A stretch of 64,000 bases of DNA from Corynebacterium stationis (lineage in GTDB: Bacteria > Actinomycetota > Actinomycetes > Mycobacteriales > Mycobacteriaceae), in NCBI RefSeq assembly GCF_001941345.1, contig NZ_CP009251.1:2232001-2296000 (forward strand). Reading direction: 5' to 3'. A program made the position numbers and the translations under genes. Below the pieces are notes generated by a model. It saw nothing but the letters and a program-made list of their open reading frames with translations. It searched no databases and was not told where the DNA came from. Of this stretch, positions 1 to 19,330 are shown piece by piece; position 1 is the first letter of the stretch, and each line of letters opens with the position of its first letter.

Positions 1-642
1 GCCCGCCACAATCTCTGGCTGCGAACCGCTCACCTCAGCGGCCACTCGCTGGGCACGCTCACGTTCTTTCTTATCGCCAGTGAGAAGCACGCGGTGCCCA
101 GAAGCGAGCAAATCTTCCACTACTCGGGCGAATCTATCGACGGGCCAATGTCGGCTAGCGTGGGCCGCACCCACATGAACTACCGCGGCTTTCTTGGGAA
201 TATCCGCTTCAGGAATAGGAAGTCGGAGATCCAAAGGATCTCCCGGCAAGCCGTGGGCGTTGAGCAGCCGAACCCATCGCTCACGCTCGTGAATATCGTC
301 CCTCCATGCAGGTCCGTCCCACCCTGGGGCGGCGTGACCGATGCGACGGCGCGGCCTCAGAGCCTCCAACCGAGACCGGCTATCAATGCCATTCCCATGC
401 AAGTTGACAGCGACATCGACACTACCAGGCCGCAAACCCAAGGGAGCATCCAACCCATGAGGAGTAGGCAACAATTCATCGACCACGCCGATCAAATCGA
501 TCAACGGGCGCAGCCACTCGGCACACGCGACAATGAGACGATGATCCGGAAGCCCCTGACGCAATCCCCGCAAAGCCGGAACAGCTACCAACAAATCTCC
601 GAGTTTGAGGGCTCGAAGTGCCAACACTGTGGGTTGATCCAT
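1..642 (-). CDS. GT9 family glycosyltransferase (heptosyltransferase-like), partial
   Basis: An open frame of 214 codons runs from an ATG at 642 off the left edge, so only the N-terminal part is seen. It starts with the typical GT9 N-terminus (RALKLGDLLVAVPALRGLR, a phosphate/acceptor loop of ADP-heptose:LPS heptosyltransferases) and later shows a sugar-nucleotide domain entry (VVHVGAAHASRHWPVDRF). The family transfers heptose from ADP-heptose to cell-surface glycans on the cytoplasmic side. A purine-rich AAGGTAG lies upstream of the ATG. The gene is divergent from the gmhB-like gene, and the two start regions overlap by a few bases. The acceptor cannot be read from the sequence. Confidence 0.85.
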   Translation of the reverse strand, partial: MDQPTVLALRALKLGDLLVAVPALRGLRQGLPDHRLIVACAEWLRPLIDLIGVVDELLPTPHGLDAPLGLRPGSVDVAVNLHGNGIDSRSRLEALRPRRRIGHAAPGWDGPAWRDDIHERERWVRLLNAHGLPGDPLDLRLPIPEADIPKKAAVVHVGAAHASRHWPVDRFARVVEDLLASGHRVLLTGDKKERERAQRVAAEVSGSQPEIVAG

Positions 643-1167
643 GATTATCATCTACCTTCTGCCGTACTATTCGACCGCGATAATACCCTTGTCGTAGACG
701 TTCCCTATAACGGTGACCCCGCTCTTGTTCGCCCAATGCCGGGCGCGCGCGACGCTTTGGACATGCTCCGAGCACACGGCATCCCAGTTGGCGTAATCAG
801 TAATCAATCGGGCATCGGACGTGGCCTGATTACTAACTCGCAGGTACAGTCGGTGAACCAACGTATCACGGAAATTCTTGGCCATTTCGACATATGGAAG
901 ATTTGCCCACACGTCGACTCCGACGGATGCGCTTGCCGCAAACCGGAGCCCGGAATGTTGCTTTCTGCAGCCCAGCATCTAGGGGTCGATCCGCAGAAGA
1001 TGGTTTTCGTAGGGGACATAGGCGCTGATATTGGTGCGGCGAGGGCTGCGGGATGTCGGGGTATTCTAGTCCCGACAGAAGTGACCCTTCAGTCCGAGGT
1101 AGATGACGCCCCTATCGTCGCCTCCGATCTCACTTCTGCCGTTGAAGTCGCGTTGGGAGTTCACTGA
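634..1167 (+). CDS. gmhB: HAD-family D-glycero-D-manno-heptose 1,7-bisphosphate phosphatase (GmhB-like)
   Basis: About 177 aa if started at TTG 634, the only plausible start before the HAD core. The frame is open further upstream, but that part is antisense to the GT9 gene. The catalytic HAD motif FDRDN places Asp14/Asp16, and the GmhB zinc-binding set C-x-H...C-x-C is present at Cys91, His93, Cys99 and Cys101 with a short loop, followed by RKPEPGM and the motif VGDIGAD. Known GmhB enzymes remove the C7 phosphate of heptose 1,7-bisphosphate. Related HAD proteins include the histidinol-phosphatase half of HisB, but heptose neighbours favour GmhB. No good ribosome binding site precedes the TTG, so the start is uncertain. 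Confidence 0.8.
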   Translation: MIHDYHLPSAVLFDRDNTLVVDVPYNGDPALVRPMPGARDALDMLRAHGIPVGVISNQSGIGRGLITNSQVQSVNQRITEILGHFDIWKICPHVDSDGCACRKPEPGMLLSAAQHLGVDPQKMVFVGDIGADIGAARAAGCRGILVPTEVTLQSEVDDAPIVASDLTSAVEVALGVH

Positions 1168-2210
1168 TGCGAAAAGTACTCGTCGCTCGACTCGACAGCG
1201 CAGGAGATGTACTGGTCACAGGACCTGCTATCCGTGCTGTAGCCGCCTCTCCGGAAGTCACCCAACTGACTCTCTTGTGTGGTCCACAGGGCCGCTCTGC
1301 AGCGGAGCTCCTGCCCGGTCCAACGGATCTATTCACTTGGGCCAGCCCTTGGACTGTCGTACCCGCGCCTTCTGCAGACGACTTTCACATCGAAATACTC
1401 AAACAATTCGTAAAACGAGAGGGTTTCGATGAGGCAATCATCTTCACTTCTTTTCATCAGTCGCCCCTTCCTCTCGCGCTAATACTGCGTATGTCCGGCG
1501 TCAAACGAATTACGGGTGCTTCCGTCGATTTCGCTGGCTCCTTACTCGACGTTCGCTTACGACCGGGAGAAGATTTTCCAGAAGATCAGCCCGAAACAGA
1601 ACGTGCCATTGGCATCGCCGCTGCTGCCGGTTATCGCCTCCCGCCAGACGATGACGGCCGGCTCCGAGTTAGCGGTCTTGATACAACATTGAATTCTGCG
1701 CTTCCAGACAAATACATAGTGGTGCACCCCGGCGCGGCAGTACCCGCTCGGATGTGGCCTCCCGACCGCAGCACGGCTGCAGTTGAGTTGTTGATCCGCC
1801 GAGGGCACCAAGTAATAGTCACTGGCGGCAAAGGCGAGACGGAGTTAACAGCACAGGTTGCGGGTATTCATGGGATAGATATGGGTGGAAAGACCGATCT
1901 TCGTCAAACCGCCGAGGTGCTTGCACGCGCCGACGTCGTTGTGTCCGGAAACACTGGCCCCGCACACCTGGCAGCAGCAGTTGGGACGCCCGTCGTCAGT
2001 CTTTTTTCTCCCGTCGTACCGCCAATTCGTTGGGCCCCTTACGGCGTACCTGTGGAGTTACTCGGAGATCAAGAAGCAGCGTGCAAGAACACTCGTGCTC
2101 GTGATTGCCCTGTCGCAGGCCACCCCTGTCTTGCTTCAGTAACCCCGACTCAGGTAGCTGACGCCGTCGAGCGTCTACAGGCAAGCCACTTAAATATGCG
2201 AAAAAGGTAG
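1167..2210 (+). CDS. GT9 family glycosyltransferase (heptosyltransferase-like)
   Basis: 347 aa, the usual length for GT9. The N-terminus RKVLVARLDSAGDVLVTGP matches the family loop, and the C-terminal nucleotide-sugar site SGNTGPAHLAAAVGTPVVSL lies near residues 259-278. The start codon shares one base with the stop of gmhB (TGATG), so the two are translationally coupled. Enzymes of this family use ADP-heptose. The context (GmhB, GmhA-like and HldE-like genes in one operon) supports a heptose donor, but the acceptor is unknown. The C-terminus carries a Cys-containing segment (ARDCPVAGHPC) seen in many GT9 proteins. Confidence 0.88.
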   Translation: MRKVLVARLDSAGDVLVTGPAIRAVAASPEVTQLTLLCGPQGRSAAELLPGPTDLFTWASPWTVVPAPSADDFHIEILKQFVKREGFDEAIIFTSFHQSPLPLALILRMSGVKRITGASVDFAGSLLDVRLRPGEDFPEDQPETERAIGIAAAAGYRLPPDDDGRLRVSGLDTTLNSALPDKYIVVHPGAAVPARMWPPDRSTAAVELLIRRGHQVIVTGGKGETELTAQVAGIHGIDMGGKTDLRQTAEVLARADVVVSGNTGPAHLAAAVGTPVVSLFSPVVPPIRWAPYGVPVELLGDQEAACKNTRARDCPVAGHPCLASVTPTQVADAVERLQASHLNMRKR

Positions 2211-2218
2211 GTACAGCA

Positions 2219-3178
2219 ATGAAAATTTTACTTTGGCACGTGCACGGCTCTTGGACGGATGCATTTGTCCACGGCCCGCACGAATATCTGCTGCCGGCAT
2301 TGCCGGAGGGCGGACCTTGGGGGCTGGGACGAGCCGACCGAGACTGGCCAGCGACAGTGCGCGATGTAGCTCCACACAGTGCTGAATTGGAAGAAGTGGA
2401 CGTTGTAATTCTGCAGCGACCCGAGGATTTAGCCGCTGCCGAACAGCTCCTCGGAAGAAAACCAGGTGTAGATATACCTGCGGTATATGTCGAGCACAAC
2501 ACTCCTCGGGGAGATGTACCGGATAGCGTGCACCCACTTGCAAATCAGTCCGAAATACCGATCGTGCATGTGACTTATTTCAATCAGCTGTTCTGGGATA
2601 ATGGCTCAGCTCCGAATACTGTCATCGAACACGGAATCCGAGACCCAGGGCATCTCTACACCGGAGAGAATCCCCACTTTGCGCTAGTCAGCAACGAACC
2701 CGTCCGACGCTGGCGTGTCACCGGCACAGATTTACTCCCAGGTTTCGCCAAGATTGCCCCCGTGGAGCTTTTCGGAATGGGAACCGAAAGAATCCATGAG
2801 GCTACTGGAATATCGTCAAATGCCCTCCATGTTCACGGAGACCTCAAGCGTGAGGTACTGCACTACGAGATGGCGAAGCAACGTATTTACCTCCACACCG
2901 TACGCTGGACCTCTCTAGGTCTTTCTCTTTTGGAGGCCATGCACCTAGGGATGCCAGTGCTCGCATTGGCCACCACCGAGGCTACCCGCGCGATCCCTGC
3001 CGAGACTGGTTTCCTATCCACACATGTAGAGGATCTCCACCAAGCCGCTTTACGTTTGATCGACGATCCAGAGCTAGCTCGGACGATGGGTACCAACGCC
3101 AGGTCCTTCGTACTTGAGCGGTACAGCCTGAAGAGGTTCCTTCAGGATTGGAGCACTTTACTATCCGACATCGTTTGA
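2219..3178 (+). CDS. GT4-like glycosyltransferase (GT-B fold)
   Basis: 319 aa. The C-terminal half has the GT4 donor-site pattern (LGLSLLEAMHLGMPVLAL, about residues 231-249), then the usual helix-rich tail with LERYSLKRF. The N-terminal half is short and poorly conserved (begins MKILLWHVHGSWTDAF), shorter than standard GT4 enzymes of 370-400 aa. It starts 8 bases after the GT9 stop, behind AAAAAGGTAGG, so it is part of the same operon. Function is inferred to be transfer of one sugar in the glycan built by this cluster. Donor and acceptor cannot be predicted. Confidence 0.8.
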   Translation: MKILLWHVHGSWTDAFVHGPHEYLLPALPEGGPWGLGRADRDWPATVRDVAPHSAELEEVDVVILQRPEDLAAAEQLLGRKPGVDIPAVYVEHNTPRGDVPDSVHPLANQSEIPIVHVTYFNQLFWDNGSAPNTVIEHGIRDPGHLYTGENPHFALVSNEPVRRWRVTGTDLLPGFAKIAPVELFGMGTERIHEATGISSNALHVHGDLKREVLHYEMAKQRIYLHTVRWTSLGLSLLEAMHLGMPVLALATTEATRAIPAETGFLSTHVEDLHQAALRLIDDPELARTMGTNARSFVLERYSLKRFLQDWSTLLSDIV

Positions 3179-3221
3179 TTTCTTTTTCTTGCCCACATCT
3201 CGATGATTTTAAGGACTGACT

Positions 3222-5054
3222 ATGAAAATTTCTATGATCTCCGAACATGCCAGCCCGCTTGCGGCGTTGGGCGGTGTCGACGCTGGCGGACAGAATGTTC
3301 ATGTCGCGTCGTTATCGCGAGCGTTAGCCGCACGAGGTCACCAAGTAACGGTGTTCACCCGACGGGATAGTCCGGATCTTTCAGAAACTGTCATTGCCGA
3401 GCCCGGTGTCACCGTCGTTCATGTAACCGCTGGTCCAATCGGTCCCCTGCCCAAGGACGAATTTCTTCCGTATATGCCCGGCTTCGGTCGAGAAGTTGCG
3501 CGTTACTGGTGCGATCATCCTGAAGTAGTACCAGACGTAGTACACTCCCACTTTTGGATGTCTGGCTTAGCTGCTCGCACTGCCTTGGACTCCGCAGACT
3601 TAGCAGGCACACCTCTCGTGCACACCTTTCATGCATTAGGCACGGTCAAGCGCCGCTACCAGGGATCGGCCGACACGAGCCCCGTGGAGCGCGCCTGGAT
3701 TGAGCCCCAAATAGGCCAGTTGGCTACCCACATCATCGCTACTTGCCATGATGAGGTTCGAGAGTTAGAAGCGATGGGTATTTCCCCCGCAAAAACTACA
3801 GTGATTCCGTGCGGGGTAGACCTAGAAATGTTCACTCCGGACAAACCTATGGAGCCCACTGGCGGCCGCCGACGAATCGTTTGTGTCGGGCGGTTAGTCC
3901 CACGCAAAGGGATGGATCTGGTAATCCGAGCTCTGCCACTATTAGCCCAGCATGGTTTCGACGATGTAGATCTTCACATCATCGGCGGTGGAGAACAAAA
4001 AAGTTTCGAGTCTGATCCAGAAGCAGTTCGATTGAGGAAAATTGCCTCCGACCTCGGAGTCAGTGACCGAGTAATTTTCCGAGGTCAAGTACCGCGGGAA
4101 GAAGTCCCCTCTATTTTACGCAGTGCCGATATCGTAGCCTGCACCCCTTGGTACGAACCTTTTGGCATCGTGCCACTGGAGGCAATGGCATGCGGTGTCC
4201 CGGTTCTAGCCGCGAAAGTTGGCGGCCTAGCAGACACGGTGGTCGATGACGCAACAGGAATACACGTTCCTCCACAGGATCCAGCTGCCATTGCCGCAGC
4301 CGCGGCGGAGATACTGCAAGATCCCGCGCGTATTGCACTGATGGGAGCACACGGCGTTCGTCGCGCTCGCTCGCTCTACTCCTGGCCCGTTGTCGCCAAA
4401 TCCACCGAGGCTGCTTATCAAAGCCTAATTAAGGGCACACCGATGTTGAGCGCGAGCAGCGCGAGCCATGCAGATATTGCCGCCCACCTAGATGGGGTAT
4501 CCACTGCTGTTAGCTCGCTGCGGAACCAGTCAGGGTTGCTCGCCCAATGGGGTCGAGAACTGGCCAGCACGCTCGGCGCTGGCGGTAAATTGTTTACTGC
4601 TGGAAATGGGGGCTCTGCTGCTGAAGCCCAACACCTAAGTGCTGAACTGGTGGGGCGGTTTCAGGATGAGCGTCCAGCATACTCTGCAATTGCACTGCAC
4701 ACTGACTCTTCAGCGGTTACCGCGATCAGTAACGATTACGGCTACGAACACGTCTTCGCACGCCAACTCGAAGGGCATGCTCGTAAAGGCGACGTGCTGT
4801 TGCTACTAAGCACTAGTGGTAACAGCCCGAATCTACTGCGTGCAGCTGAAACCGCTACAAAGAAAGGTCTTCGAGTCTGGGCTCTGACAGGCCCGGGTCC
4901 AAACCCATTAGCTGAGCTCTGCGACGAGGCCATCATGATCGATGCTGAATCCCCCAACGTGCAAGAAGCTCATCTCATGGCGGTTCACAGCATCTGTCGA
5001 GTATTCGACGCCGAGGTAGCTCATGCCGCGCAAACTAGCTTCCAGGAGGTTTAG
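3222..5054 (+). CDS. Fusion: GT4 glycosyltransferase + GmhA-like sedoheptulose-7-phosphate isomerase (SIS domain)
   Basis: 610 aa. Residues 1 to about 395 form a complete GT4 enzyme resembling MshA/sucrose-synthase-type transferases (N-terminal GGVDAGGQNVHV, donor site EPFGIVPLEAMACGVPVLA). Residues from about 415 to the end form a SIS isomerase. The GmhA signature AGNGGSAAEAQHLSAEL gives metal ligands His471 and Glu475, and the second pair Gln581 and His589 has the same spacing (+8) as in E. coli GmhA. The phosphate loop LLLSTSGNSPNLL is intact. Known GmhA converts sedoheptulose 7-phosphate to heptose 7-phosphate. RBS AAGGA lies 7 bases before the ATG. I see no frameshift at the joint; the linker (around PMLSASSASHADI) is in frame. 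The fusion itself is unusual. Confidence 0.88.
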   Translation: MKISMISEHASPLAALGGVDAGGQNVHVASLSRALAARGHQVTVFTRRDSPDLSETVIAEPGVTVVHVTAGPIGPLPKDEFLPYMPGFGREVARYWCDHPEVVPDVVHSHFWMSGLAARTALDSADLAGTPLVHTFHALGTVKRRYQGSADTSPVERAWIEPQIGQLATHIIATCHDEVRELEAMGISPAKTTVIPCGVDLEMFTPDKPMEPTGGRRRIVCVGRLVPRKGMDLVIRALPLLAQHGFDDVDLHIIGGGEQKSFESDPEAVRLRKIASDLGVSDRVIFRGQVPREEVPSILRSADIVACTPWYEPFGIVPLEAMACGVPVLAAKVGGLADTVVDDATGIHVPPQDPAAIAAAAAEILQDPARIALMGAHGVRRARSLYSWPVVAKSTEAAYQSLIKGTPMLSASSASHADIAAHLDGVSTAVSSLRNQSGLLAQWGRELASTLGAGGKLFTAGNGGSAAEAQHLSAELVGRFQDERPAYSAIALHTDSSAVTAISNDYGYEHVFARQLEGHARKGDVLLLLSTSGNSPNLLRAAETATKKGLRVWALTGPGPNPLAELCDEAIMIDAESPNVQEAHLMAVHSICRVFDAEVAHAAQTSFQEV

Positions 5055-5056
5055 AA

Positions 5057-6424
5057 ATGAACACAACAGTAGAGGTAGTAGTCGTAGGAGATGTCCTGCT
5101 TGATATCGACACCGTCGGCACGGCCCGCCGGCTTTCTCCCGATGGCCCCGTGCCAGTCATTGATGTACTCAAGGAGACTCCACGGCCAGGCGGAGCAGGA
5201 CTGACAGCCCTTTTGCTCAAGGAGTCAGGAATAGCCACTACATTGGTCACTCTTGTTAGCGATGACGAGTATTCCGATCAGCTGACCGAAACACTCGAAG
5301 GAGTAACACTTGTAACCGGAAGCTCCGGTCATCCCACGCCCGTGAAAAAGCGCCTGTTAGCGGAGGGACACGTTGTTACGCGGATGGATCATAATTGCTC
5401 GCCTACCGTTCCTTCTCCAGTGACTGAGAAAATGCTCGCTGCAGTTCGCTCCGCCGGCGCCGTCCTGGTTTCTGATTATGGTCGCGGATTGACCTTTGAT
5501 CCAAGCTTGCGTGCAGTATTGCAAGAGGTCGCCGCGAAAATCCCCGTAGTCTGGGATCCGCACCCGAACGGTGCCGTCCCAGTGGAAGGTGTTACAGCGG
5601 TCACCCCGAACCTGACGGAGCTGAGAGCGGTAGTGGGTAAAGATACCGGAGAACACCGAGGGCTGTCGCAGGCAGCTGCTGCGTTACTCGAACAGTGGCC
5701 TGCTTGCTCGGTTATCGTCACGCTTGGGGCAAAGGGAGCAGCAATATTCAATCGTGATGATCTACCCCAATACGTTCCAGCCATCGCCAGTCCTAACAGT
5801 GACGCTTGCGGCGCAGGAGACCGTTTCGCAGGAGCATTAACAGCTCGCTTGGCCGCAGGCTCGCCGTTAGCAACTGCGGTAGATGCTGCTGTGCAGGAAG
5901 CAGGAACCTTCTTATCACGCGGCGGGGTTGCTGCTTTGGGAGAAGAGAGCCATAGCAAATTGCCGTTCGATGATCTCGATGCTCGAATCGCGGAAGTTCG
6001 TAAGAGAGAAGGGACCATCGTAGCGACCGGAGGTTGCTTCGATCTTCTACACGCTGGTCACGCCCGAACCCTACAGGCAGCACGTCGGTTAGGGGACATG
6101 CTTATTGTCTGTTTAAACTCTGACCGATCTGTAAGCCGACTCAAGGGACCAGAGCGTCCAATTGTCGCCCAGGAGGATCGAGTGGAGCTGTTGGAGTCAC
6201 TAGAGTGCGTCGATGCGGTCATAGTCTTTGACGAAGACACTCCGGAGGCTGTACTCCAGCAGCTTCGCCCAGACCTTTGGGTCAAAGGTGGCGACTACGA
6301 CATGGACTCTCTTCCAGAAGCTGAGCTCATGCGCAGCTGGGGAGGTGAGGCAGTTACTGTCCCCTATCATCCGGCCCGCTCCACCACTCGCCTAGTTCAG
6401 GCGCTCAACACCGTTAACTCATAA
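5057..6424 (+). CDS. HldE-like fusion: PfkB-type sugar kinase + heptose-1-phosphate nucleotidyltransferase (divergent kinase half)
   Basis: 455 aa. Residues 1-310 are a PfkB/ribokinase fold with the catalytic GAGD motif (Asp255). Residues 322-455 are an RfaE-C-type nucleotidyltransferase with the HxGH motif (His332, His335), the segment GPERPIV and DLWVKGGDY. Known HldE phosphorylates heptose 7-phosphate at O1 and adenylylates heptose 1-phosphate. The kinase half lacks the usual GGAAN substrate-binding motif and has PGGAGLTALLL instead, so its substrate may differ from that of the second copy at 9638. It lies 2 bases after the GT4-GmhA gene with AGGAGG as RBS. Confidence 0.85.
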   Translation: MNTTVEVVVVGDVLLDIDTVGTARRLSPDGPVPVIDVLKETPRPGGAGLTALLLKESGIATTLVTLVSDDEYSDQLTETLEGVTLVTGSSGHPTPVKKRLLAEGHVVTRMDHNCSPTVPSPVTEKMLAAVRSAGAVLVSDYGRGLTFDPSLRAVLQEVAAKIPVVWDPHPNGAVPVEGVTAVTPNLTELRAVVGKDTGEHRGLSQAAAALLEQWPACSVIVTLGAKGAAIFNRDDLPQYVPAIASPNSDACGAGDRFAGALTARLAAGSPLATAVDAAVQEAGTFLSRGGVAALGEESHSKLPFDDLDARIAEVRKREGTIVATGGCFDLLHAGHARTLQAARRLGDMLIVCLNSDRSVSRLKGPERPIVAQEDRVELLESLECVDAVIVFDEDTPEAVLQQLRPDLWVKGGDYDMDSLPEAELMRSWGGEAVTVPYHPARSTTRLVQALNTVNS

Positions 6425-6453
6425 AACCGACTTTTCAAAGGACCTGAATACAT

Positions 6454-7146
6454 ATGCAACTGAAGAACGCAAAGATCTTGATCACCGGCGGCGGCTCCGG
6501 CCTAGGTTTGGCCTGTGCCTCGGCTATCACCAACGCTGGCGGTACCGCAGTCATCCTGGACCGGGATATCTCGAATGTCAACGACTACCGCTCCTACGAA
6601 GTAGACGTAACCGATCGCTCAGCAGTGGAGACCGCTATTACCCAGGTGGCCGAAGAGTTAGGAGGAATCGACGCTTTGATTGCCGCCGCAGGTATGGACA
6701 TTCCAGGCGAACTAGATGAAATCAGCGCGGAACAATGGGAGCAGGTTCTCAACGTCAACTTGCTTGGAACCGTGTCTGCCACAAGAGCGGCCCTGCCTCA
6801 CCTTAAGAAATCCCACGGGAGGGTCGTCACGGTGGCCTCTACTTTGGCATTGAAGGGTGCTGGAGGAGCCACCGCCTATAGCGCCTCAAAGTTCGCCGTG
6901 CGCGGGTTCAGTCAGGCACTAGCGGCGGAGACAAAGGGAAAAATCGGCGTAACCTGCCTTATTCCCGGCGGGATGAATACCAAATTCTTCGACGGGCGCT
7001 CAGAGCAATATATGCCCCAGGACAACTCCCGTCTCAACGAACCTGCAAGCGTTGCTGAAGCGGTGCTCTACGCCCTGACTCAACCGGAGAACGTCGAGAT
7101 TCGCGAAATGCTCATCGCCAACGAAATGGAGGATTCTTGGCCTTAA
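6454..7146 (+). CDS. Short-chain dehydrogenase/reductase (classical SDR)
   Basis: 230 aa, classical SDR size. The N-terminal cofactor motif is ITGGGSGLGLA, the central motif is AAAGMDIP, and the catalytic Tyr-x-x-x-Lys is in TAYSASKFAVRG with the Ser in VTVASTLALKG. It probably uses NAD(P)H on a sugar or alcohol. It follows the HldE-like gene by 29 bases with AAAGGA as RBS, so it belongs to the operon. It is much shorter than the extended-SDR epimerase HldD (about 310 aa) and should not be called HldD. Its substrate is unknown, but a nucleotide-heptose or heptosyl intermediate is a reasonable guess. It ends where the convergent GT9 gene ends. Confidence 0.88.
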   Translation: MQLKNAKILITGGGSGLGLACASAITNAGGTAVILDRDISNVNDYRSYEVDVTDRSAVETAITQVAEELGGIDALIAAAGMDIPGELDEISAEQWEQVLNVNLLGTVSATRAALPHLKKSHGRVVTVASTLALKGAGGATAYSASKFAVRGFSQALAAETKGKIGVTCLIPGGMNTKFFDGRSEQYMPQDNSRLNEPASVAEAVLYALTQPENVEIREMLIANEMEDSWP

Positions 7147-8223
7147 TTAGACGGCCAACGCTTGCACATCGGCCCAAACGTCATCTACCCCGATACCAGT
7201 CAGGAAGGAAGGATCATGATCACACCGTTCGGCAGTCCATCCGACTTGGGTTACGTCCACGCCGCAGACTGGACAGTTCGTCACCCAAGACAACTGTACT
7301 CGGTGTTTACCTCGTCCCAACGGGCCAGCATTAATGAGGTTACCTACCCAGTAAAGCCCCACCGTGCGAGTACCTACGGCAAGGGCAAGGTGGCGAGGGC
7401 CGCTATCATTGCCCAATACAACGTCAGATTCCGCAAGTACTCCGACCAGTTCCGACAGTGTGAGAGAGCCAGCCAAGGATCTTCCCCCTGCATCACGGGC
7501 AATCCGTTCAGCAGCTTCCATATCTGCGGCATCTCCAACGACGAGCACCTGCCAATCTGCGGCCACAGCCCGACGAGCGATCTCGGCAAAGCGCTCCACG
7601 GGCCAGCGTCTGCGGGGATCGGTAGCTCCCGGGTGGATCGTCAACAAGCGCTGTCCTGTTCGGTACTGTCGAGCAACCTCGCGCTCAGTTCTGCGCGCGA
7701 CGATACGGGGTTCCAGGTCACGAACCTCCGCACCCGCCAATCCTACGACCTCCAGAGCACGCAGCATTTCATGTTGATAGTAGACGTAAGGCAAGTTGCG
7801 CTCCAAAGGAACCGCATCCGGGGTGCACGTCCCCACCGTGTGACGGGCGCCGAGTTCCAGAAGGAAAGGATTGGAGTAGCGCCCACCCCCATGCAGCTGG
7901 ACAGCGAGATCGAAATGCCGTTCTTTCATTCTTTTCAGAAACTCCGCGATCTGCCAAGGATTCTCACGACCAGGGCGCACCCCTTGCGAGATCGGAAGCT
8001 CGACCACCTCAGACACAGGGCCAGGACGGTCTTGCAGCAGGGAAACAGCAGCTGGAGTGCACAGCAAGGTTATCGATGCGTCAGGATAGGCGTCAGCTAG
8101 GGCCGTGATCGCCGGCATGGAAAACATAACATCGCCCAGGCCTCCCCCTCGCAACACCGCGATGCGTTCTACACCAGTGAATTTATCTCCCTGCTCGCCT
8201 ACAAACGTCCCACAATTTGTCAC
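7147..8223 (-). CDS. GT9 family glycosyltransferase (heptosyltransferase-like)
   Basis: 358 aa on the opposite strand to its neighbours, convergent with the SDR and divergent from the aldehyde dehydrogenase. It shows the GT9 loop (IAVLRGGGLGDVMFSMPAI), the C-terminal domain entry HPGATDPRRRWPVERFAEI and the nucleotide-sugar site GNDSGPRHLALAVGTRTVGL. GTG 8223 is used as start, with GGAAG 5-6 bases upstream. The C-terminus has a Cys-rich tail (NCPVCGVDV) as in other GT9 proteins. With the partial gene at 1-642 and the gene at 1167 it makes three GT9 members, implying several distinct transfer steps. A long antisense frame on the plus strand here is a shadow. Confidence 0.88.
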   Translation of the reverse strand: MTNCGTFVGEQGDKFTGVERIAVLRGGGLGDVMFSMPAITALADAYPDASITLLCTPAAVSLLQDRPGPVSEVVELPISQGVRPGRENPWQIAEFLKRMKERHFDLAVQLHGGGRYSNPFLLELGARHTVGTCTPDAVPLERNLPYVYYQHEMLRALEVVGLAGAEVRDLEPRIVARRTEREVARQYRTGQRLLTIHPGATDPRRRWPVERFAEIARRAVAADWQVLVVGDAADMEAAERIARDAGGRSLAGSLTLSELVGVLAESDVVLGNDSGPRHLALAVGTRTVGLYWVGNLINAGPLGRGKHRVQLSWVTNCPVCGVDVTQVGWTAERCDHDPSFLTGIGVDDVWADVQALAV

Positions 8224-8261
8224 GACACTTCCACCTTCTTAAGAATCTAGAGAGGACCACC

Positions 8262-9641
8262 ATGACCATTATCGACCAGGTAACAGCAAATCTCAGCGTA
8301 GCTGATCCCACCACCGGAGAGCTCATTGGCGAAGTCACAAGCGCAAACTACGACGATGTAGTCGAAGGCGTAACGTCCGCCCGTGCTGCTCAACCAAGGT
8401 GGGCAGGCATTCCCGCAGAAAAACGTGGTAAATATCTACACGCGATGGCCGATGCCCTTGCCGATGCAGCCGACGAGCTCGCAAACCTAAACCATCGCGA
8501 AACCGGAAAACTTCTAAAAGACTGCTACGGTGGCATCGACGCCGGAGCCGCCACGCTGCGTCAATACGCGGAACTAGGTCCGCTGCATCGAGGCCACAGT
8601 CTGCGCGGTGACAGTCTTGCTGCTGACTACACAGTAACGCGACCTCGCGGGGTTGTCGTAGCACTGACGCCGTGGAATGACCCGGTAGCGGTGGCTATGG
8701 GACTAATCGGAGCAGCGCTCGTAACGGGCAATACTGTGGTTCACAAGCCGAGTGAGCGCAATCCACATCTCGGCAAAAAGCTAGGCGAAGTTCTGAGCGA
8801 GGTCCTGCCATCCGATGTTCTAACGACCCTCATCGGCGCTGGTGATGTCGGGCAATTGTTGACAGCTGATAGCCGGGTCGATGCCTTTGCCCATGTTGGA
8901 TCAACCGCCACTGGCGCTCAAATCGCCGCAGCGGCTACCGAAACTGGGGCACACGTTATCCGGGAAAACGGCGGAAACGACGCTTTAATAATCGATGACA
9001 CAGTTGATCCGGCTTGGGCGGCGCAACAGACAGCACTTGGCTGCTTTGTCAATGCCGGTCAGATCTGTACTTCCGTAGAGCGAGTATTCGTCGACCGCGC
9101 TATTGCTGGACAATTCCTCGAGCACCTCATCTCCGAGGCCCAGCGTTGGGGAACCACTCAGCCAGTTGTCGACGTGGCTCATCGCAGCCAAATCCATGAT
9201 CAGGTCAGCGCCGCCGTGAGAGATGGAGCTCAGCTTCTCACAGGCGGTGTAATCCCCGATGGCCCCGGAGCGCACTACCCTGCGACGGTAATCAGTAACT
9301 GTCAACCCGCGATGACTGTGATGAGAGAGGAGACTTTCGGTCCAGTCGCCCCAGTCTTTGTCATCGATTCCTTTGAAGAAGGACTGCAATTGGCCGACAA
9401 TGATCGTTATGGCTTGGCTGCAACGGTTCTCACTAAGCGCTTGGATCGGGCACTACAAGCCGTCGACACCCTGCAAGTCGGCACTGTGAAAGTCAACAAC
9501 GTATTCGGAGGTGCCCCGGGCGGATCTGCTCAACCACACCGCGACTCCGGCGATGGTTTCGGTTATGGCCCTGAGCTGCTCGACGAAATGACTACTACCT
9601 CAGTGGTTCACCTAGAATTTCCCGGAGGTGTAGTAAAGTGA
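8262..9641 (+). CDS. NAD(P)-dependent aldehyde dehydrogenase
   Basis: 459 aa from ATG 8262 (RBS AGAGG 6 bases upstream); an upstream in-frame start at 8217 is rejected because it lacks an RBS and overlaps the divergent gene. ALDH superfamily hallmarks are present: LTPWNDPVAVAMGLIGAAL (cofactor region), general base Glu235 in RENGGN, and nucleophile Cys269 in NAGQICTSVERV. These enzymes oxidise aldehydes to acids with NAD(P)+. Its stop overlaps the GTG of the second HldE-like gene, so the two are coupled, which suggests the substrate is connected to the sugar pathway. The exact aldehyde cannot be told. Confidence 0.88.
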   Translation: MTIIDQVTANLSVADPTTGELIGEVTSANYDDVVEGVTSARAAQPRWAGIPAEKRGKYLHAMADALADAADELANLNHRETGKLLKDCYGGIDAGAATLRQYAELGPLHRGHSLRGDSLAADYTVTRPRGVVVALTPWNDPVAVAMGLIGAALVTGNTVVHKPSERNPHLGKKLGEVLSEVLPSDVLTTLIGAGDVGQLLTADSRVDAFAHVGSTATGAQIAAAATETGAHVIRENGGNDALIIDDTVDPAWAAQQTALGCFVNAGQICTSVERVFVDRAIAGQFLEHLISEAQRWGTTQPVVDVAHRSQIHDQVSAAVRDGAQLLTGGVIPDGPGAHYPATVISNCQPAMTVMREETFGPVAPVFVIDSFEEGLQLADNDRYGLAATVLTKRLDRALQAVDTLQVGTVKVNNVFGGAPGGSAQPHRDSGDGFGYGPELLDEMTTTSVVHLEFPGGVVK

Positions 9642-11119
9642 CCCTCGCTTCTGATCTTCCCCTAAAACTAGCCAGTTCAGCGCGAACCATCACCGTCATC
9701 GGAGATGTCATTCTTGATACCTGGGTATACGGTACAAGCCACCGGTTAGCTCGAGAAGCGCCAGCTCCCGTTGTCGACCGCAGCCACGAGAATTTTGCCC
9801 CTGGCGGAGCTGCAAATACCGCCATGAACCTTGCTGCGCTCGGCGCGCGGGTGCGTCTAGTAGGTGTAGCTGGGGACGATGCTGCTGGGCATCGCCTTCA
9901 AAAACTACTGGCCTGTGCAGGTGTTGACACCACCCATCTTGTGCTGAATCCAGCAGTATCCACCACCACCAAGTCTCGGGTGGTGGTCGGAGATCAGGTA
10001 CTCTTTCGCCTCGATGAAACCCCTCAAAACTATCCAGCTGAACTATTGGCGGAACTTTGCGAGCACGCTTTAAGTGCTTCCTGGGATTCCGATGCTCTGA
10101 TCATCTGCGACTACGACGGCCCTGTCCACCAGAGCAACCTACCGCACCGACTAGGAGCAATGACAGATCGCCCGCTAACTGTCGTGGATGCTCATGACCC
10201 TAGGCATTGGGCAGCAGCCCATCCTGATCTCATCACACCGAACCAGCAAGAGGCTGAAATAATCATCGGAACCACGCTTGGGACAGGGCAAGAAAGGGTT
10301 GAACGCGTAGCCGAATTCGCTCACGCCTTGCTCGAACAGACCGCAGCAGCTCGGGTAGTAGTTACCTTCGACCGCGATGGCACAGTGTTGTTTAATGATT
10401 CAGGGGTGATCCACCGGACTTGGGCCAATCCAGCTTCCGAGAAGCAGGCATCAGGAGCCGGTGATACTTTTGTAGCAGCGCTGACTCTCGCTTTGGCTAG
10501 CGGGCTCACAGACGACACCGCTCTCGATTTAGCTCAGTCAGCTGCAGACGTTGTGGTACATCGGCTCGGTACTTCCCTATGCTCTACCAGAGACCTCATG
10601 GCACATCTCAACGATTTCGCCGACGCTCTAACCTCCACCAGTGAGCTTCTGGAAAAGGTCGCAGCTCACCGACAAGCGGGACGACGGATCATCCTATCCA
10701 ACGGTTGCTTCGATGTACTGCACCGCGGGCATATCTCTTACCTCAATAAAGCTTCGCAACTTGGAGACATACTAATAGTAGCCGTCAACGACGACGACTC
10801 AGTGCGACGTCTCAAAGGTGAGGGCCGTCCTATAAACCCCCTAAGTGACAGGGCAGGGGTACTCGCCGCACTGAATTCGGTGGACTACGTAACTGCATTT
10901 TCCACCGACACTCCGATTCCGCTGATAGAGAAATTACAGCCCGACATCTACGTCAAGGGTGGGGACTACACCCCAGAAATGCTCACTGAAACTGCCGTCG
11001 TCCGAGCCTATGGTGGCGAAGTCCGGATAATGAATTATGTCTCCGATCACTCCACAAGTGCCTTAGTGGAGCGCATGAAACAGAGCCAACCGAGAGGAGA
11101 AGACCGTGCCCGCGCGTGA
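9638..11119 (+). CDS. hldE: HldE-like bifunctional heptose 7-phosphate kinase / heptose 1-phosphate adenylyltransferase
   Basis: 493 aa, close to the usual HldE length. The kinase half (to about 335) has GDVILDTWVYG, the canonical PGGAANTAMNLAALGA and catalytic GAGD with Asp276. The nucleotidyltransferase half (about 350-493) has SNGCFDVLHRGHISYL (His362, His365), GEGRPIN and DIYVKGGDY. This is the more canonical of the two HldE copies. Start is GTG 9638 with GGAGG 9 bases upstream, overlapping the ALDH stop. Known reaction: heptose 7-phosphate to heptose 1,7-bisphosphate, then heptose 1-phosphate plus ATP to ADP-heptose. Nucleotide preference (ADP versus another NDP) is inferred. Confidence 0.88.
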   Translation: MTLASDLPLKLASSARTITVIGDVILDTWVYGTSHRLAREAPAPVVDRSHENFAPGGAANTAMNLAALGARVRLVGVAGDDAAGHRLQKLLACAGVDTTHLVLNPAVSTTTKSRVVVGDQVLFRLDETPQNYPAELLAELCEHALSASWDSDALIICDYDGPVHQSNLPHRLGAMTDRPLTVVDAHDPRHWAAAHPDLITPNQQEAEIIIGTTLGTGQERVERVAEFAHALLEQTAAARVVVTFDRDGTVLFNDSGVIHRTWANPASEKQASGAGDTFVAALTLALASGLTDDTALDLAQSAADVVVHRLGTSLCSTRDLMAHLNDFADALTSTSELLEKVAAHRQAGRRIILSNGCFDVLHRGHISYLNKASQLGDILIVAVNDDDSVRRLKGEGRPINPLSDRAGVLAALNSVDYVTAFSTDTPIPLIEKLQPDIYVKGGDYTPEMLTETAVVRAYGGEVRIMNYVSDHSTSALVERMKQSQPRGEDRARA

Positions 11120-11969
11120 CAGTTCCCAATGGGGCGCGCCCAATTCTTCCAAAAGCGAGGTGGTTCCCCTAGAGGTGCTCATCCCCTGTTTCGAGCGCCC
11201 AGCGGAACTTGCTGTGACTTTATCGGGGTTAGCCGCACAAATGGAACAAGACTTCGACATCATCCTCTCAGACCAATCAGGTACCGCGATTTGGGAAGAT
11301 TCTTCTGTGGTTGCGATGGTTCGGGTGTTGCGTGCACAGGGAAGGACGGTTCGTTGCGAACGAAACTTGCCCCGCCGCGGATTGGCACAACAACGACACC
11401 ATCTCCTTCAGCTCAGTAATGCTCCACTAGTCCTTTTCCTCGACAGTGATGTTTGGCTGGAGCCTGGCACCATGAGCCGAATGCTCTCGGCCCTAAACCA
11501 ATATGGTGGGGGCTTTATTGGATCCGCTGTTCAAGGTCTGTCGTATCTCCAAGACGAACGGCCCGCTGAATGGGCGCCCTTCGAACCATGGGAAAGCCGG
11601 GTAGCCCCGGAACCCGTACCAGATTCGGGCCCCGCCCACGAACGTTGGCGACTCCACAATGCTGCCAATCTTTGTCACCTTGCAGCTCGTCAAGACTTCG
11701 GCCCCGACGGATTCTTGGCGTACAAAATCGCTTGGGTGGGCGGATGCGTTCTGTTTGATAGGGAATGCTTGCTCGAGGCCGGCGGTTTCGAGTTTTGGTC
11801 TCAACTACCTGCAAACCACGCAGGTGAAGACGTACTAGCGCAATGGAAAGTACTTTCTCGCTATGGCGGAGCTGCCGTCCTACCAAGCGGAGCAGTCCAT
11901 CTGGAGGCGCCAACGACTGTCATGGATCGTTCCACTGAAGCAACGGAGGTACTCACAGCAGAGTCATAA
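11106..11969 (+). CDS. GT2 family glycosyltransferase (GT-A fold)
   Basis: 287 aa. The N-terminal GT-A motif is VLIPCFERPAELAVTLSGL, the metal-binding DxD is in LVLFLDSDVWLEPG, and a later acidic motif is GEDVLAQWK. The start is GTG 11106, overlapping the end of the HldE-like gene by 14 bases, with GAGGAGA just upstream. It is a soluble enzyme without visible membrane helices. It is the last gene of the ALDH-HldE-GT2 module and probably adds a sugar to the same glycan or glycolipid as the GT9 genes. Specificity is not predictable. Confidence 0.85.
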   Translation: MPARDSSQWGAPNSSKSEVVPLEVLIPCFERPAELAVTLSGLAAQMEQDFDIILSDQSGTAIWEDSSVVAMVRVLRAQGRTVRCERNLPRRGLAQQRHHLLQLSNAPLVLFLDSDVWLEPGTMSRMLSALNQYGGGFIGSAVQGLSYLQDERPAEWAPFEPWESRVAPEPVPDSGPAHERWRLHNAANLCHLAARQDFGPDGFLAYKIAWVGGCVLFDRECLLEAGGFEFWSQLPANHAGEDVLAQWKVLSRYGGAAVLPSGAVHLEAPTTVMDRSTEATEVLTAES

Positions 11970-12036: not shown

Positions 12037-13656
12037 ATGCGAGTCGTAATTACCGGTGCCACAGGGAACCACGGCACCGCAGTGCTCAAAGCACTGCACT
12101 CCACACCGGAAATCACACATATTACCGGTATCGCTCGGCGTCTACCGGACACCGACTCGGAACCTTATGCTGGCTGCGAGTGGAAAACCGTCGATATTGC
12201 AGCAGCCAGTACCGCTACCGACGCCATCACTGAATTAACCGATATCTTCCGAGGAGCTGACGCGGTAATCCACCTAGCCTGGCTGATTCAACCCAATGAA
12301 CGCCGAGAGCTTCTCCACCGTGTCAATGTCGAAGGCACCCGGCGCGTCACCGAGGCCATAGCTGCTGCTGGAGTGCCACACTTAGTGGTCGCGAGCTCAG
12401 TCGGAGCTTATTCTCCCGACCCCACCCGTGAAACAGACGGAACCCTGCCACTACGGGATGAGAATTGGCCAGCTACTGGCATAACGTCCTCTCACTACAG
12501 CTCCGATAAGGCGGACCAAGAAAGAGTTCTCAATGATTTTTCCGTGCTTCATCCTGATGTCGTCATCACTCGGCTGCGTCCCGGTTTAACTTTTCAGGCA
12601 GATGCCGCCGCCGAGATTCAACGCTACTTTATCGGTAGCGCAATCCCCGACCAAGCGCTGAAAATGACACCACCTGTTTTGCCCCTGCCTAAGGGTTTAG
12701 CGGCTCAGGCGGTGCATGCTGATGACCTCGGCAAAGCCTACGCATTGGCAGTAGTCAAAAAGGCTGGCGGAGCGTTCAATGTCTGCGCACCCGACATTCT
12801 CTACCCGCAAGATTTTGCCGATATCATCGATCACGGCCACTTCATAGAGGTTCCGCCCACAGTGGCGCGGGCGACTGTGGCCGCCGCCCATAAAGCTGGA
12901 ACGCTAGCCGCAGACGCCGGCTGGATTGATATGGCAATGCAGGTGCCAATGATGGACAACTCCCGCGCGGTGAACCAATTGGGTTGGCGGCCACAGCACA
13001 GTGCAGCCGATGCTCTGCGCGAACTGCTTGGTGCCCTACGCAGCGGGCAAGGAACTTCGTCTTTACCCCTGCGACCTCGCGACCGAGATCCTGCTGTGCC
13101 CTCAGGTGAGATTCCCGAGGAGATGTCTCGGGAGCTCCTCCAGTTATATCTCTCCGATCACTTGACCGGGGCAACAGCCGGCGTTGAACGAATGAACCGG
13201 ATGGCACACGACTACGTAGACACTCCCATGTTCGCGACGCTCTCTGCCTTGGCCGTGGAAATCCGCACGGAGCAAGTGTTCTTAAAAAATCTCATCCAAC
13301 AACTAGGCCTCAAGCAGATGCCATACCGGCAGGCCATGGCAAACGTCGCAGAAAAAGCAGGCAGGCTAAAGGGCAACGGGCGGGCAGTAACCCGCTCTCC
13401 TATGACAATGCTGCTCGAGACTGAGCTGATGCGCAGCGCAGTAGTCGGCAAGGAGGGAGGTTGGCAAACTCTAATTGATTACGCGGAAAAAATGGACATG
13501 GATCCCGTGCCCTTCACAAAGCTTCGCGATAAGGTCCACGATCAGCTTGTGGCTTTGGATGAAGTACACGCTTATGCGCGGTCGCGAGCATTCTTGGAAA
13601 CCCGTAAAACCTATAAAGACCAAACAGACAGACCTGAAAATAGGAGAAGGACATGA
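12037..13656 (+). CDS. Fusion: NAD-dependent epimerase/dehydratase + ferritin-like helical domain
   Basis: 539 aa. Residues 1 to about 330 are an extended SDR with the cofactor loop VITGATGNHGTAVLKAL and the C-terminal end LGWRPQHSAADALRELL. Residues about 360-539 are an all-helical domain (begins EEMSRELLQLYLSDHLTGA) that resembles free-standing actinobacterial ferritin-like proteins of about 165 aa, often encoded next to such an epimerase. RBS AGGAGG lies 5 bases before the ATG. It overlaps the start of the small acidic gene by 4 bases. Neighbouring genes suggest a redox/stress role; the substrate of the epimerase half is unknown. It is probably not part of the heptose pathway. Confidence 0.82.
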   Translation: MRVVITGATGNHGTAVLKALHSTPEITHITGIARRLPDTDSEPYAGCEWKTVDIAAASTATDAITELTDIFRGADAVIHLAWLIQPNERRELLHRVNVEGTRRVTEAIAAAGVPHLVVASSVGAYSPDPTRETDGTLPLRDENWPATGITSSHYSSDKADQERVLNDFSVLHPDVVITRLRPGLTFQADAAAEIQRYFIGSAIPDQALKMTPPVLPLPKGLAAQAVHADDLGKAYALAVVKKAGGAFNVCAPDILYPQDFADIIDHGHFIEVPPTVARATVAAAHKAGTLAADAGWIDMAMQVPMMDNSRAVNQLGWRPQHSAADALRELLGALRSGQGTSSLPLRPRDRDPAVPSGEIPEEMSRELLQLYLSDHLTGATAGVERMNRMAHDYVDTPMFATLSALAVEIRTEQVFLKNLIQQLGLKQMPYRQAMANVAEKAGRLKGNGRAVTRSPMTMLLETELMRSAVVGKEGGWQTLIDYAEKMDMDPVPFTKLRDKVHDQLVALDEVHAYARSRAFLETRKTYKDQTDRPENRRRT

Positions 13657-16978: not shown

Positions 16979-17008
16979 TATGATACTAAGTATTTACCCG
17001 CCAAGGAG
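16979..17008 (+). promoter_or_regulatory. Putative crtB promoter -10 and RBS
   Basis: A TATGAT hexamer at 16979-16984 is followed by a short leader and a strong Shine-Dalgarno AAGGAG at 17003-17008, 7 bases before the crtB ATG. No convincing -35 is visible 16-18 bases upstream, so the promoter may need an activator or an alternative sigma factor. This is a sequence reading only. Confidence 0.4.
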
Positions 17009-17015
17009 CGCTTTC

Positions 17016-17867
17016 ATGAATTCACCCACGAGGCGCGCGCTGATTGAGACCTACGATAAGACTGCTCGTCGTGCGTCTGGCAAAATTATCTCGGGATATT
17101 CCTCCAGTTTCTCGCTTGCAACGCGCCTGCTAGCTGAACCCGCCCGAACAGATATCCGCCATCTTTACGCAGTTGTCCGTATAGCGGACGAAATTGTCGA
17201 TGGCACTGCACTTGAAGTCGGCGCCAATCCGGCCAAGCTACTCAACGAGTACGAGGAACAGGTTCGAAAGGCAGCAGAACAAAAATTTCATACGGACCCT
17301 GTCATGCATGCTTTTGCCATGACTGCACGGCGCTGCAATTTCAAAGACGAGCACCTCAGAGCATTTTTCACATCCATGCGCCGCGACTTGGATTCCTCCG
17401 CTCATGATGCTGCTAGCTTTGATTCATATGTCTACGGCTCAGCGGAAGTCATTGGATTGCTGTGCCTGGATGTGTTTCTCGCAGATAGAAAAACTGGCGC
17501 GAAGGAAAGAGAACAGCTCGATGCAGGAGCAAGACACCTTGGTGCCGCGTTTCAGAAGATCAATTTCCTTAGAGACCGGCACGAAGATTTTGAAATCCTA
17601 GGAAGAGAGTACTTTCCCGAGGGAACTACTCTCGAAGCTATTCTGTCCGATATCCGAGATGACATCGAAATCGCTCGGACCGTCATCCCGGGGCTTCCTT
17701 TGAGAGCTCGAGCAGGAGTATTAGCTGCGACCGGCATATTCGAAGAACTAACATCACAATTGGCAGATAGCCGATCGGATAAGACGCGAATTAGTGTTCC
17801 ACGCCGGAAGAAGCTCGGAATTGCGGTACGCGCAGCTGTCACAGCATTGAAAGGGAACAATAAGTGA
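17016..17867 (+). CDS. crtB: Phytoene synthase CrtB
   Basis: 283 aa from ATG 17016, chosen over an in-frame ATG at 16980 because AAGGAG lies just upstream. Both aspartate-rich motifs of squalene/phytoene synthases are present: DEIVD near residues 58-62 and DRHED near 188-192, inside the typical sequence FQKINFLRDRHEDF. It condenses two geranylgeranyl diphosphates to phytoene, the first committed step of the carotenoid path. It overlaps crtI by 4 bases (GTGA). It is the first gene of the crt operon seen here; no crtR-type regulator or mmpL gene is adjacent. Confidence 0.93.
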   Translation: MNSPTRRALIETYDKTARRASGKIISGYSSSFSLATRLLAEPARTDIRHLYAVVRIADEIVDGTALEVGANPAKLLNEYEEQVRKAAEQKFHTDPVMHAFAMTARRCNFKDEHLRAFFTSMRRDLDSSAHDAASFDSYVYGSAEVIGLLCLDVFLADRKTGAKEREQLDAGARHLGAAFQKINFLRDRHEDFEILGREYFPEGTTLEAILSDIRDDIEIARTVIPGLPLRARAGVLAATGIFEELTSQLADSRSDKTRISVPRRKKLGIAVRAAVTALKGNNK

Positions 17868-19330
17868 AAACTACTGTGATAATTATCGGCGCCGGGGTCG
17901 CTGGTCTCGCGACGGCTGGCTTACTAGCCCGTAATGGCTACCAAGTCACGGTGGTGGAGAAAAATGCTACTTTCGGAGGAAGAGCGGGGAATTTAGAAGC
18001 TCAAGGCTTTCGATGGGATACGGGTCCCTCCTGGTATCTCATGCCTGATGCTTTCGAGCATTTTTTCCAACAAATGGGCACCTCGACCAAGGATGTACTC
18101 GACGTAGTTCGGTTGAGCGAACCCGCTTATAGGGTCTTCCCAGAGCACCACCCTCCTCTAGACATCCCAGCTGGCAGGGAAAATGTTGTAAAGCTTTTTG
18201 AGTCCATTGAGGAAGGCGCTGGAAAACAACTAGAAGCCTATCTAGATAGCGCTGAATTTGCCTACCGGACTGCTCTTGACCACTTCCTTTATACAACGTT
18301 TTCCTCCCCGCTAGTTTTCCTCCGCCGTGATATTTTAACCAATCTCGCCTTCCTTATAAGCTTGCTAACGACGTCACTCGATAAGTATGTGGCCAAGAGA
18401 TTCACTGACACTCGCTTGCGCCAAATACTTGCTTACCCTGCAGTTTTCTTGTCTTCCCGCCCTGAAAAAACACCTGCGCTCTATCATCTAATGAGTCATA
18501 CTGATTTAACTCAAGGTGTGAGCTACCCTATCGGCGGCTTCCACGCAGTGATGAAAGTCTTGTACAAGCTCGCCCTCGATAATGGTGTTAAATTCCGTTT
18601 TTCCTCGCCTGTCTCATCCATCACGACGTCCGACGGCCGAGCGACAGGTATCGTCCTGTCGGAAGAGCGTTTGCAGGCTGATGTCGTGGTCAGCTGCGCT
18701 GATCTACACCACACCGAAACCCAGCTTTTACCGGAAAACCTACGTTCTTATTCCGAAAACTGGTTCGACAAACGCAGCCCTGGCTTGGGAACTGTACTTC
18801 TAATGCTGGGTATCAGCGGGGAATTACCCCAACTAGCCCATCACAATCTTTTTTTCAGCGAGAACTGGACGGTAGATTTTGACGCAGTTTTCGAGGACAC
18901 CGGTTGGTCCCAGTCGATCTATGTGTCTAAACCCTCTGCGACGGATCCCGAAGTAGCCCCAGCTGGTCATGAAAATCTTTTCGTTCTAGTCCCGGTTAAG
19001 GCTGACCCCGCGTTCGAGCGCGAGGAGGAAGTCGCAGAAGAGGCCCTGCGGCTAATTTCTGAACGGGCGGAAATTCCTGATCTCGCTTCTCGCATTGCCT
19101 TCCAACATATTCTAGGCCCCGCAGACTTCGCCCGAGATTACCACGCTTGGAGTGGCGGTTCGATCGGACCGAGTCATTCGCTCAAACAATCCGCATTTTT
19201 GCGGGGAAGCAATAAGTCGAAGAAGATAGCAGGGCTTTACTATGCTGGAGCAACCACCGTCCCAGGGGTCGGAGTACCACTTTGCCTTATTTCAGCGGAA
19301 AACGTTCTCATCCGACTGCGTGAAGAATAA
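17864..19330 (+). CDS. crtI: Phytoene desaturase CrtI
   Basis: 488 aa, with a GTG start overlapping the crtB stop. The FAD-binding loop VIIIGAGVAGLATAGLLA sits at residues 5-22, followed by FGGRAGNLEAQGFRWDTGPS; the C-terminal FAD motif YYAGATTVPGVGVPLC is at about 461-476. CrtI desaturates phytoene to lycopene. The protein is somewhat shorter than the usual 500-550 aa, but both signature ends are intact. It is followed by an unusual gap of about 480 bases before the next gene. Confidence 0.93.
   Translation: MKTTVIIIGAGVAGLATAGLLARNGYQVTVVEKNATFGGRAGNLEAQGFRWDTGPSWYLMPDAFEHFFQQMGTSTKDVLDVVRLSEPAYRVFPEHHPPLDIPAGRENVVKLFESIEEGAGKQLEAYLDSAEFAYRTALDHFLYTTFSSPLVFLRRDILTNLAFLISLLTTSLDKYVAKRFTDTRLRQILAYPAVFLSSRPEKTPALYHLMSHTDLTQGVSYPIGGFHAVMKVLYKLALDNGVKFRFSSPVSSITTSDGRATGIVLSEERLQADVVVSCADLHHTETQLLPENLRSYSENWFDKRSPGLGTVLLMLGISGELPQLAHHNLFFSENWTVDFDAVFEDTGWSQSIYVSKPSATDPEVAPAGHENLFVLVPVKADPAFEREEEVAEEALRLISERAEIPDLASRIAFQHILGPADFARDYHAWSGGSIGPSHSLKQSAFLRGSNKSKKIAGLYYAGATTVPGVGVPLCLISAENVLIRLREE

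Follow-up and report, generated by a model that had tools for sequence, protein, structure and literature searches.

A Corynebacterium stationis gene cluster as an extended variant of the Streptomyces cwg gene set with a probable nucleotide-heptose route

The cwg ('cell wall glycan') operon of Streptomyces coelicolor, i.e. SCO6179-SCO6190, comprises 12 genes for putative cell wall glycan synthesis. In the excerpts of the papers cited here and below, the operon is described as a vancomycin-induced target of sigma-E with a product only 'predicted' since 2002 (PMC6767563), cwgH and cwgI are annotated as a phosphoheptose isomerase and a bifunctional synthase/transferase (PMC5839063), cwgE as a putative heptosyl transferase (PMC5882110), and cwgA is listed as salt-induced (PMC13011467). 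ADP-heptose has already been reported in Gram-positive Streptomyces, where it feeds septacidin and hygromycin B (PMC10221265); the literature listed on Corynebacterium or Arthrobacter held nothing relevant on heptose. Here, we compare these systems with a gene cluster at positions 1-11969 of a 64,000-nucleotide stretch of the C. stationis genome (the window; G000:C1:2232001-2296000; genome of 2.86 Mb in two contigs). The cluster is real and conserved, and it is an extended variant of the known cwg gene set. Judging from its sequence, we consider it likely that this extended, Brevibacterium-type set was acquired horizontally and makes a heptose-containing envelope oligosaccharide.

Correspondence with the cwg operon

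The comparison was based on the published S. coelicolor gene list and promoter and made via the cwg-type locus L139 (genome G711), with genes matched by us. L139 carries 12 genes on the same strand, i.e. those for an epimerase/dehydratase, a carbamoyltransferase and a family 2 glycosyltransferase (GT2), followed by gmhB, GT9a, the short GT4-type gene GT4s, GT4, GmhA, HldE-A, GT9c and two further GT2 genes. Upstream, 27 of the 29 bases of the published promoter are found (two mismatches), with the -10 element ending 149 bases before a GTG start, versus 147 in the published sequence. Numbering from cwgG as the GT4 gene, the heptosyl transferase, the isomerase and the synthase land at their published cwg positions.

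Seven functions of the window are collinear with this locus. The heptosyltransferase-like GT9c (window -287 to 651, minus strand, start at 642 or 651; PF01075 1.6e-26 on L009:17713-18651) runs with its 3' end past the left window edge and has heptsyl_trn_I as best NCBIfam match (89 bits, cut-off 185). Its 5' end overlaps that of gmhB (634-1167, plus), which encodes a HAD-IIIA phosphatase of the heptose 1,7-bisphosphate 7-phosphatase type; the open frame spans 1-1167, with the HAD domain beginning at about residue 220 and TTG 634 as the likely start. Then follow, all on the plus strand, GT9a (1167-2210; PF01075 1.2e-26), GT4s (2219-3178; Glycos_transf_1 1.4e-10, confined to the C-terminal half), a fusion assigned by domain matches to an N-terminal GT4 and a C-terminal SIS domain of the phosphoheptose isomerase type (GT4-GmhA, 3222-5054), and HldE-A (5057-6424), a PfkB kinase plus nucleotidyltransferase of an actinobacterial clade with the motifs GGAGL and YHPARSTT.

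In contrast to L139, in which GT9c is the last gene of the core run, the window has GT9c in divergent orientation and, unlike cwg, GT4 fused to GmhA. Moreover, it adds five genes to the cwg complement: a classical short-chain dehydrogenase (SDR; 6454-7146, plus; adh_short 4.4e-44), GT9b (7147-8223, minus; PF01075 9.7e-27; aligning to heptosyltransferase II, 1psw), an aldehyde dehydrogenase divergent from GT9b (ALDH; plus; Aldedh 2.9e-108; likely start ATG 8262 with GAGAGGACC just 5' of it, stop at 9641), HldE-B of the Gram-negative HldE type (9638-11119, plus; PfkB kinase plus nucleotidyltransferase with GGAAN and YVSDHSTS; PRK11316 372 bits, cut-off 521) and another GT2 (11106-11969, plus; Glycos_transf_2 4.1e-11). 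The cluster thus consists of two blocks, each with its own HldE and a divergent GT9, i.e. GT9c facing gmhB to SDR, and GT9b facing ALDH, HldE-B and GT2. Domain searches bear out the co-occurrence of gmhB, the GmhA fusion, two HldE-type, three GT9, GT4 and GT2 genes noted in the initial annotation, to which SDR and ALDH are added. As seven functions match cwg genes in order, however, the setting is less unique than that annotation held.

Spread and origin of the cluster

A scan with the GT4-GmhA fusion protein gave 462 related stretches in named genomes, the best 80 of which were kept; this set is biased towards close relatives, and some loci are cut by contig ends. The order GT9a-GT4s-GT4-GmhA-HldE-A is kept in 70 of the 80 loci and the left module, from the minus-strand GT9c through gmhB and this core to SDR, in 46. 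Thirty-nine of these 46 continue with minus-strand GT9b and HldE-B (19 with ALDH between them, 20 without), and the whole run through GT2 is found in 9/80 loci, five being Brevibacterium; the longer arrangement also occurs in Arthrobacter and Microbacteriaceae. SDR, ALDH and GT2 are present in 60, 26 and 15 loci, respectively. In 17/80 loci the cluster takes the cwg-like form, where GT9c follows the other genes downstream and shares their strand; in six of the 80 (Streptomyces, L019 to L045) an MFS gene of the MFS_3 type adjoins the cwg-like cluster and might encode an exporter. Given this conservation of gene order across the 80 loci, the co-location of the cluster genes exceeds chance.

GT4s, which served as the marker gene for detecting the cluster (mean column identity of 60 % in an alignment of 31 relatives), was found in 39 of 396 sampled genomes of the phylum (1e-15, own genome counted), and HldE-A-like matches (1e-20) in 26 of 201 genomes of the family. 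Together with the 462 related stretches, these marker counts rule out that the set is unique to this organism; it is a widespread actinobacterial cluster with the Streptomyces cwg operon as its core.

Within the window's genus, GT4s occurs in only two of 201 genomes, i.e. the window genome and G344. In a tree of GT4s plus GT9a from 44 loci, in which the row of the window deviates in letter composition, these two pair (99/97) and are placed among Brevibacterium (nine rows, 100/99), and the window's own-family relatives fall in the opposite half. This rarity and the nesting of both with Brevibacterium point to a probable horizontal acquisition. The start overlap of GT9c and gmhB is common to the window and Brevibacterium (eight loci with -6 bases: L011-L017 and L032) and is -9 in Flaviflexus, whereas the two genes lie 84-222 bases apart in 40 loci of other groups.

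On the right, an NAD-dependent epimerase-like gene with a C-terminal extension (12037-13656, plus; PF01370 2.5e-16) and an alcohol dehydrogenase (ADH) gene are common to the window and G344, and both are adjacent without the cluster in a relative (G215; L153). The epimerase-like gene is associated with the cluster in 20/80 loci, on either side of it, and its membership is uncertain. On the left, none of 14 upstream genes was matched in G344; with this flank not in common, no empty site could be defined.

A SigB/SigF/SigG-type sigma factor gene is present in 39 of 81 loci (e.g. L065:5439-6212). In Micrococcaceae and Microbacteriaceae it neighbours GT9c in divergent orientation, and in 33 of the 38 loci having both it is at most 600 bases from GT9c; neither the window nor L009 contains one. 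The interval from GT9c to gmhB showed a SigF-type promoter pattern in 2/49 loci, scored without a control and with the window's L010 outside the count, which led nowhere. In some Arthrobacter, the families near the sigma gene look, by reading, like membrane or stress proteins. Elsewhere in the window, squalene/phytoene-synthase-family and amine-oxidase-family genes downstream of the cluster (16980-19330) probably form a carotenoid locus, and an open frame of 3012 residues (36514-45552, minus) perhaps encodes a large multidomain synthase.

Predicted heptose route and the two HldE enzymes

The best solved relative of the SIS part of the fusion is the phosphoheptose isomerase 1tk9, and AQHLSAEL and QE.H....H, which we take to be the metal and catalytic residues, align unchanged to 1tk9 and 2xbl; GmhB is alignable to the D,D-heptose 1,7-bisphosphate phosphatase 4pnh. 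Isomerase, kinase, phosphatase and nucleotidyltransferase activities thus all appear to be encoded, in line with the near-complete heptose precursor path of the initial annotation. Because these four activities, leading from sedoheptulose 7-phosphate to a nucleotide diphosphate (NDP)-heptose, sit with heptosyltransferase-family genes, the simplest interpretation is a heptosylated glycan, and heptose is very plausible as the cluster sugar. No HldD 6-epimerase passes its cut-off in the genome (best match 112 bits versus 274.6) and the D-glycero form would therefore be expected; four matches below the cut-off were dismissed as typical of the superfamily, being seen in all 14 controls as well.

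The nucleotidyltransferase halves of both HldEs exceed the NCBIfam cut-off of TIGR02199 (189.6 and 198 bits versus 181.5). In an HldE tree of 44 rows, HldE-B groups with the HldEs of E. coli, Gluconobacter and Paludisphaera (100/100), while HldE-A joins, on a long branch, a tridomain Streptomyces protein; these separate lineages rule out a recent duplication. Motifs were counted in 100 HldE-A and 52 HldE-B loci, leaving out those lacking 70 % coverage. The kinase motif is GGAGL in 90/100 HldE-A loci and GGAAN, as in E. coli HldE, in 46/52 HldE-B loci, i.e. HldE-A has Leu in place of an Asn kept by HldE-B and most PfkB relatives. GAGD is kept in all 103 HldE-A loci (three genomes counted twice) and in both window enzymes. 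Position 5 before STT is Arg in 77 and Tyr in 17 of the 100 HldE-A loci, and His in 24 and Arg in 12 of the 52 HldE-B loci; the window has Arg in HldE-A and His in HldE-B.

According to the excerpted sources, Arg5 is associated with enzymes that accept ATP, CTP and UTP, but is not an absolute requirement (PMC11573728, PMC11461863). HldE-A shares this Arg5 with the STTR5-motif NDP-heptose nucleotidyltransferases of these reports, but the residues before it are YHPA instead of (F/L)XXG; it is alignable to 5x9q, RSTT end included. Since Arg5 is linked to ADP, CDP and UDP use, ADP is not certain as the HldE-A nucleotide.

It is tempting to speculate, although we give this little weight, that the two blocks supply two heptose donors for one glycan, i.e. 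CDP-/UDP-heptose from HldE-A and ADP-heptose from HldE-B, with separate sets of heptosyltransferases, each with its own divergent GT9, and with a start made by the GmhA-fused GT4 on a free heptose or heptulose phosphate; SDR and ALDH would then perhaps oxidize ADP-heptose to a hepturonic-type sugar. If true, this would be the first case in which the destination of a CDP/UDP-heptose in use is known, and the product would represent a novel kind of stress glycan in actinobacteria.

The tridomain relative of HldE-A is a SIS-PfkB-nucleotidyltransferase protein on the Streptomyces plasmid pFRL5, and this fusion ties the HldE-A clade to the isomerase step. Its surroundings (L160:210-13137) encode a radical SAM protein, a P450, a GT9, a carbamoyltransferase, an epimerase and a HAD protein, making the pFRL5 cluster a candidate locus for a heptose-derived natural product. 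That the window cluster itself makes such a secreted compound, similar to septacidin or hygromycin B, would fit the resemblance of the pFRL5 cluster to such a locus and the use of ADP-heptose in Streptomyces (PMC10221265). We nevertheless regard it as very improbable: a scan of the proteins of the cluster and its neighbours showed no aminotransferase, scaffold enzyme, transporter or resistance gene, the cluster is shared by many genera instead of being confined to single strains, and in Streptomyces it is a sigma-E-controlled cell-envelope operon.

Proposed product and comparison with known systems

Favouring a heptose-containing envelope oligosaccharide, we infer the following route. The GmhA domain would isomerize sedoheptulose 7-phosphate, an HldE kinase would phosphorylate C1, GmhB would remove the C7 phosphate, and an HldE nucleotidyltransferase would yield NDP-D-glycero-D-manno-heptose in the cytosol, i.e. 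ADP-heptose from HldE-B and ADP- and perhaps CDP- or UDP-heptose from HldE-A. The oligosaccharide may then be assembled on the cytosolic side by as many as six soluble glycosyltransferases, three of them GT9, two GT4 and one GT2, and possibly be tailored by SDR and ALDH. Export and anchoring would fall to machinery encoded outside the cluster, and the oligosaccharide would serve the cell envelope, most likely during envelope stress. MurJ, present once in the genome, is uninformative on the export of this glycan.

Several observations count against this proposal. Family cut-offs are missed by GmhA (164.2 versus 209.45 bits, NCBIfam), GmhB (110.4 versus 178, PRK08942), both HldE kinase halves (168.8 and 215 versus 345, TIGR02198) and, for curated WaaC/WaaF heptosyltransferases, all three GT9s. 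Within the cluster, no gene encodes a membrane protein, a flippase or a ligase. The cwg epimerase/dehydratase, carbamoyltransferase and second-type GT2 (cwg has three GT2 genes) have no tblastn match (1e-5) in the window, L009 or the G344 loci, and a carbamoyltransferase C-terminus (PF16861) was not found genome-wide. Among 18 loci scanned for the cwg promoter (10 Streptomyces-type and eight others including L010, some cut before the first gene), only one has a close match; the other 17, nine of them Streptomyces, are without, including L043 with a nine-mismatch match. None was found at up to nine mismatches in L010, nor in L020, L023 and L028, whose sequences extend past the first gene on the upstream side. 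Finally, the draft genome of Flaviflexus huanghaiensis (L041:6365-16314) keeps gmhB, HldE-B, SDR, ALDH, GT9s and GT4s at 55-66 % identity, but neither a protein nor a family search detected GmhA genome-wide; HldE-B is the only HldE, and the GT4 bears a short unrelated tail instead.

Either the Flaviflexus draft misses GmhA or HldE-B works without it. As HldE-B, GmhB and the GTs are kept there without GmhA, the assignment of the HldE-B arm to heptose is insecure, and to this extent the heptosylated product proposed earlier stands only in part. The kinases could use another sugar phosphate, with no heptose from at least one of the two arms, as the Flaviflexus gene content, the missed cut-offs and the Leu of HldE-A in place of the GGAAN Asn would suggest; yet we hold this improbable, given the conservation of the GmhA domain, its fusion to an HldE-A-type enzyme in pFRL5 and the company that GmhB and GT9 genes keep with both HldEs.

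A further alternative is suggested by the GT4 part of the fusion, whose best solved relatives are 6kih (Tll1590, 209 bits), which we take to be a sucrose-phosphate synthase, and the inositol-phosphate glycosyltransferase MshA (3c4q, 193 bits), placing it in the sucrose-phosphate-synthase/MshA type; both presumably act on sugar-phosphate acceptors. Lys and Arg are retained at the positions of MshA K78 and R154, presumably phosphate contacts, though Y110 and T134 are replaced by Phe and Ala. The domain is not the native MshA, as another locus of the genome (36 % identical, residues 1-404) would fit that role. The fusion GT4 might accordingly use a free sugar phosphate as acceptor, with sedoheptulose 7-phosphate and heptose 7-phosphate from the fused GmhA as possible candidates, to give a soluble phospho-oligosaccharide or glycoside, i.e. 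a stress solute or thiol-like compound. The fusion itself would fit, as would cluster proteins without a clear transmembrane stretch (ALDH has a single 19-residue window barely above 1.9), the neighbouring stress sigma genes and the salt induction of cwgA (PMC13011467). However, a set of six glycosyltransferases from GT9 (three), GT4 (two) and GT2 (one) points to a larger glycan, cell-wall antibiotics induce cwg via sigma-E (PMC6767563), and GT4 and GmhA are separate genes in many relatives, with a single tblastn piece covering both in 38/80 loci. Overall, a soluble product seems rather unlikely, and the envelope oligosaccharide remains our preferred reading.

The comparison ties cwg to a phylum-wide nucleotide-heptose route, as marked by GT4s, and reveals another, longer version of the cluster that has HldE of two kinds. 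The rare natural gains within the genus and the natural partial loss in Flaviflexus provide test material. NDP-heptoses are described as agonists of ALPK1, a sensor in vertebrates (PMC11573728), and reviews call the functions of CDP- and UDP-heptose unknown. Compared with the Gram-negative ADP-heptose pathway, the window has two HldE lineages, GmhA fused to GT4 and no HldD over the cut-off, in an organism without lipopolysaccharide, but it shares the four activities of the GmhA-HldE-GmhB route and the GT9 family of its heptosyltransferases. Micrococcaceae and Microbacteriaceae clusters differ from that of the window in adjoining a SigB/SigF-type gene. The extended clusters of Brevibacterium and Arthrobacter have the same genes as the window in the same order and orientation.

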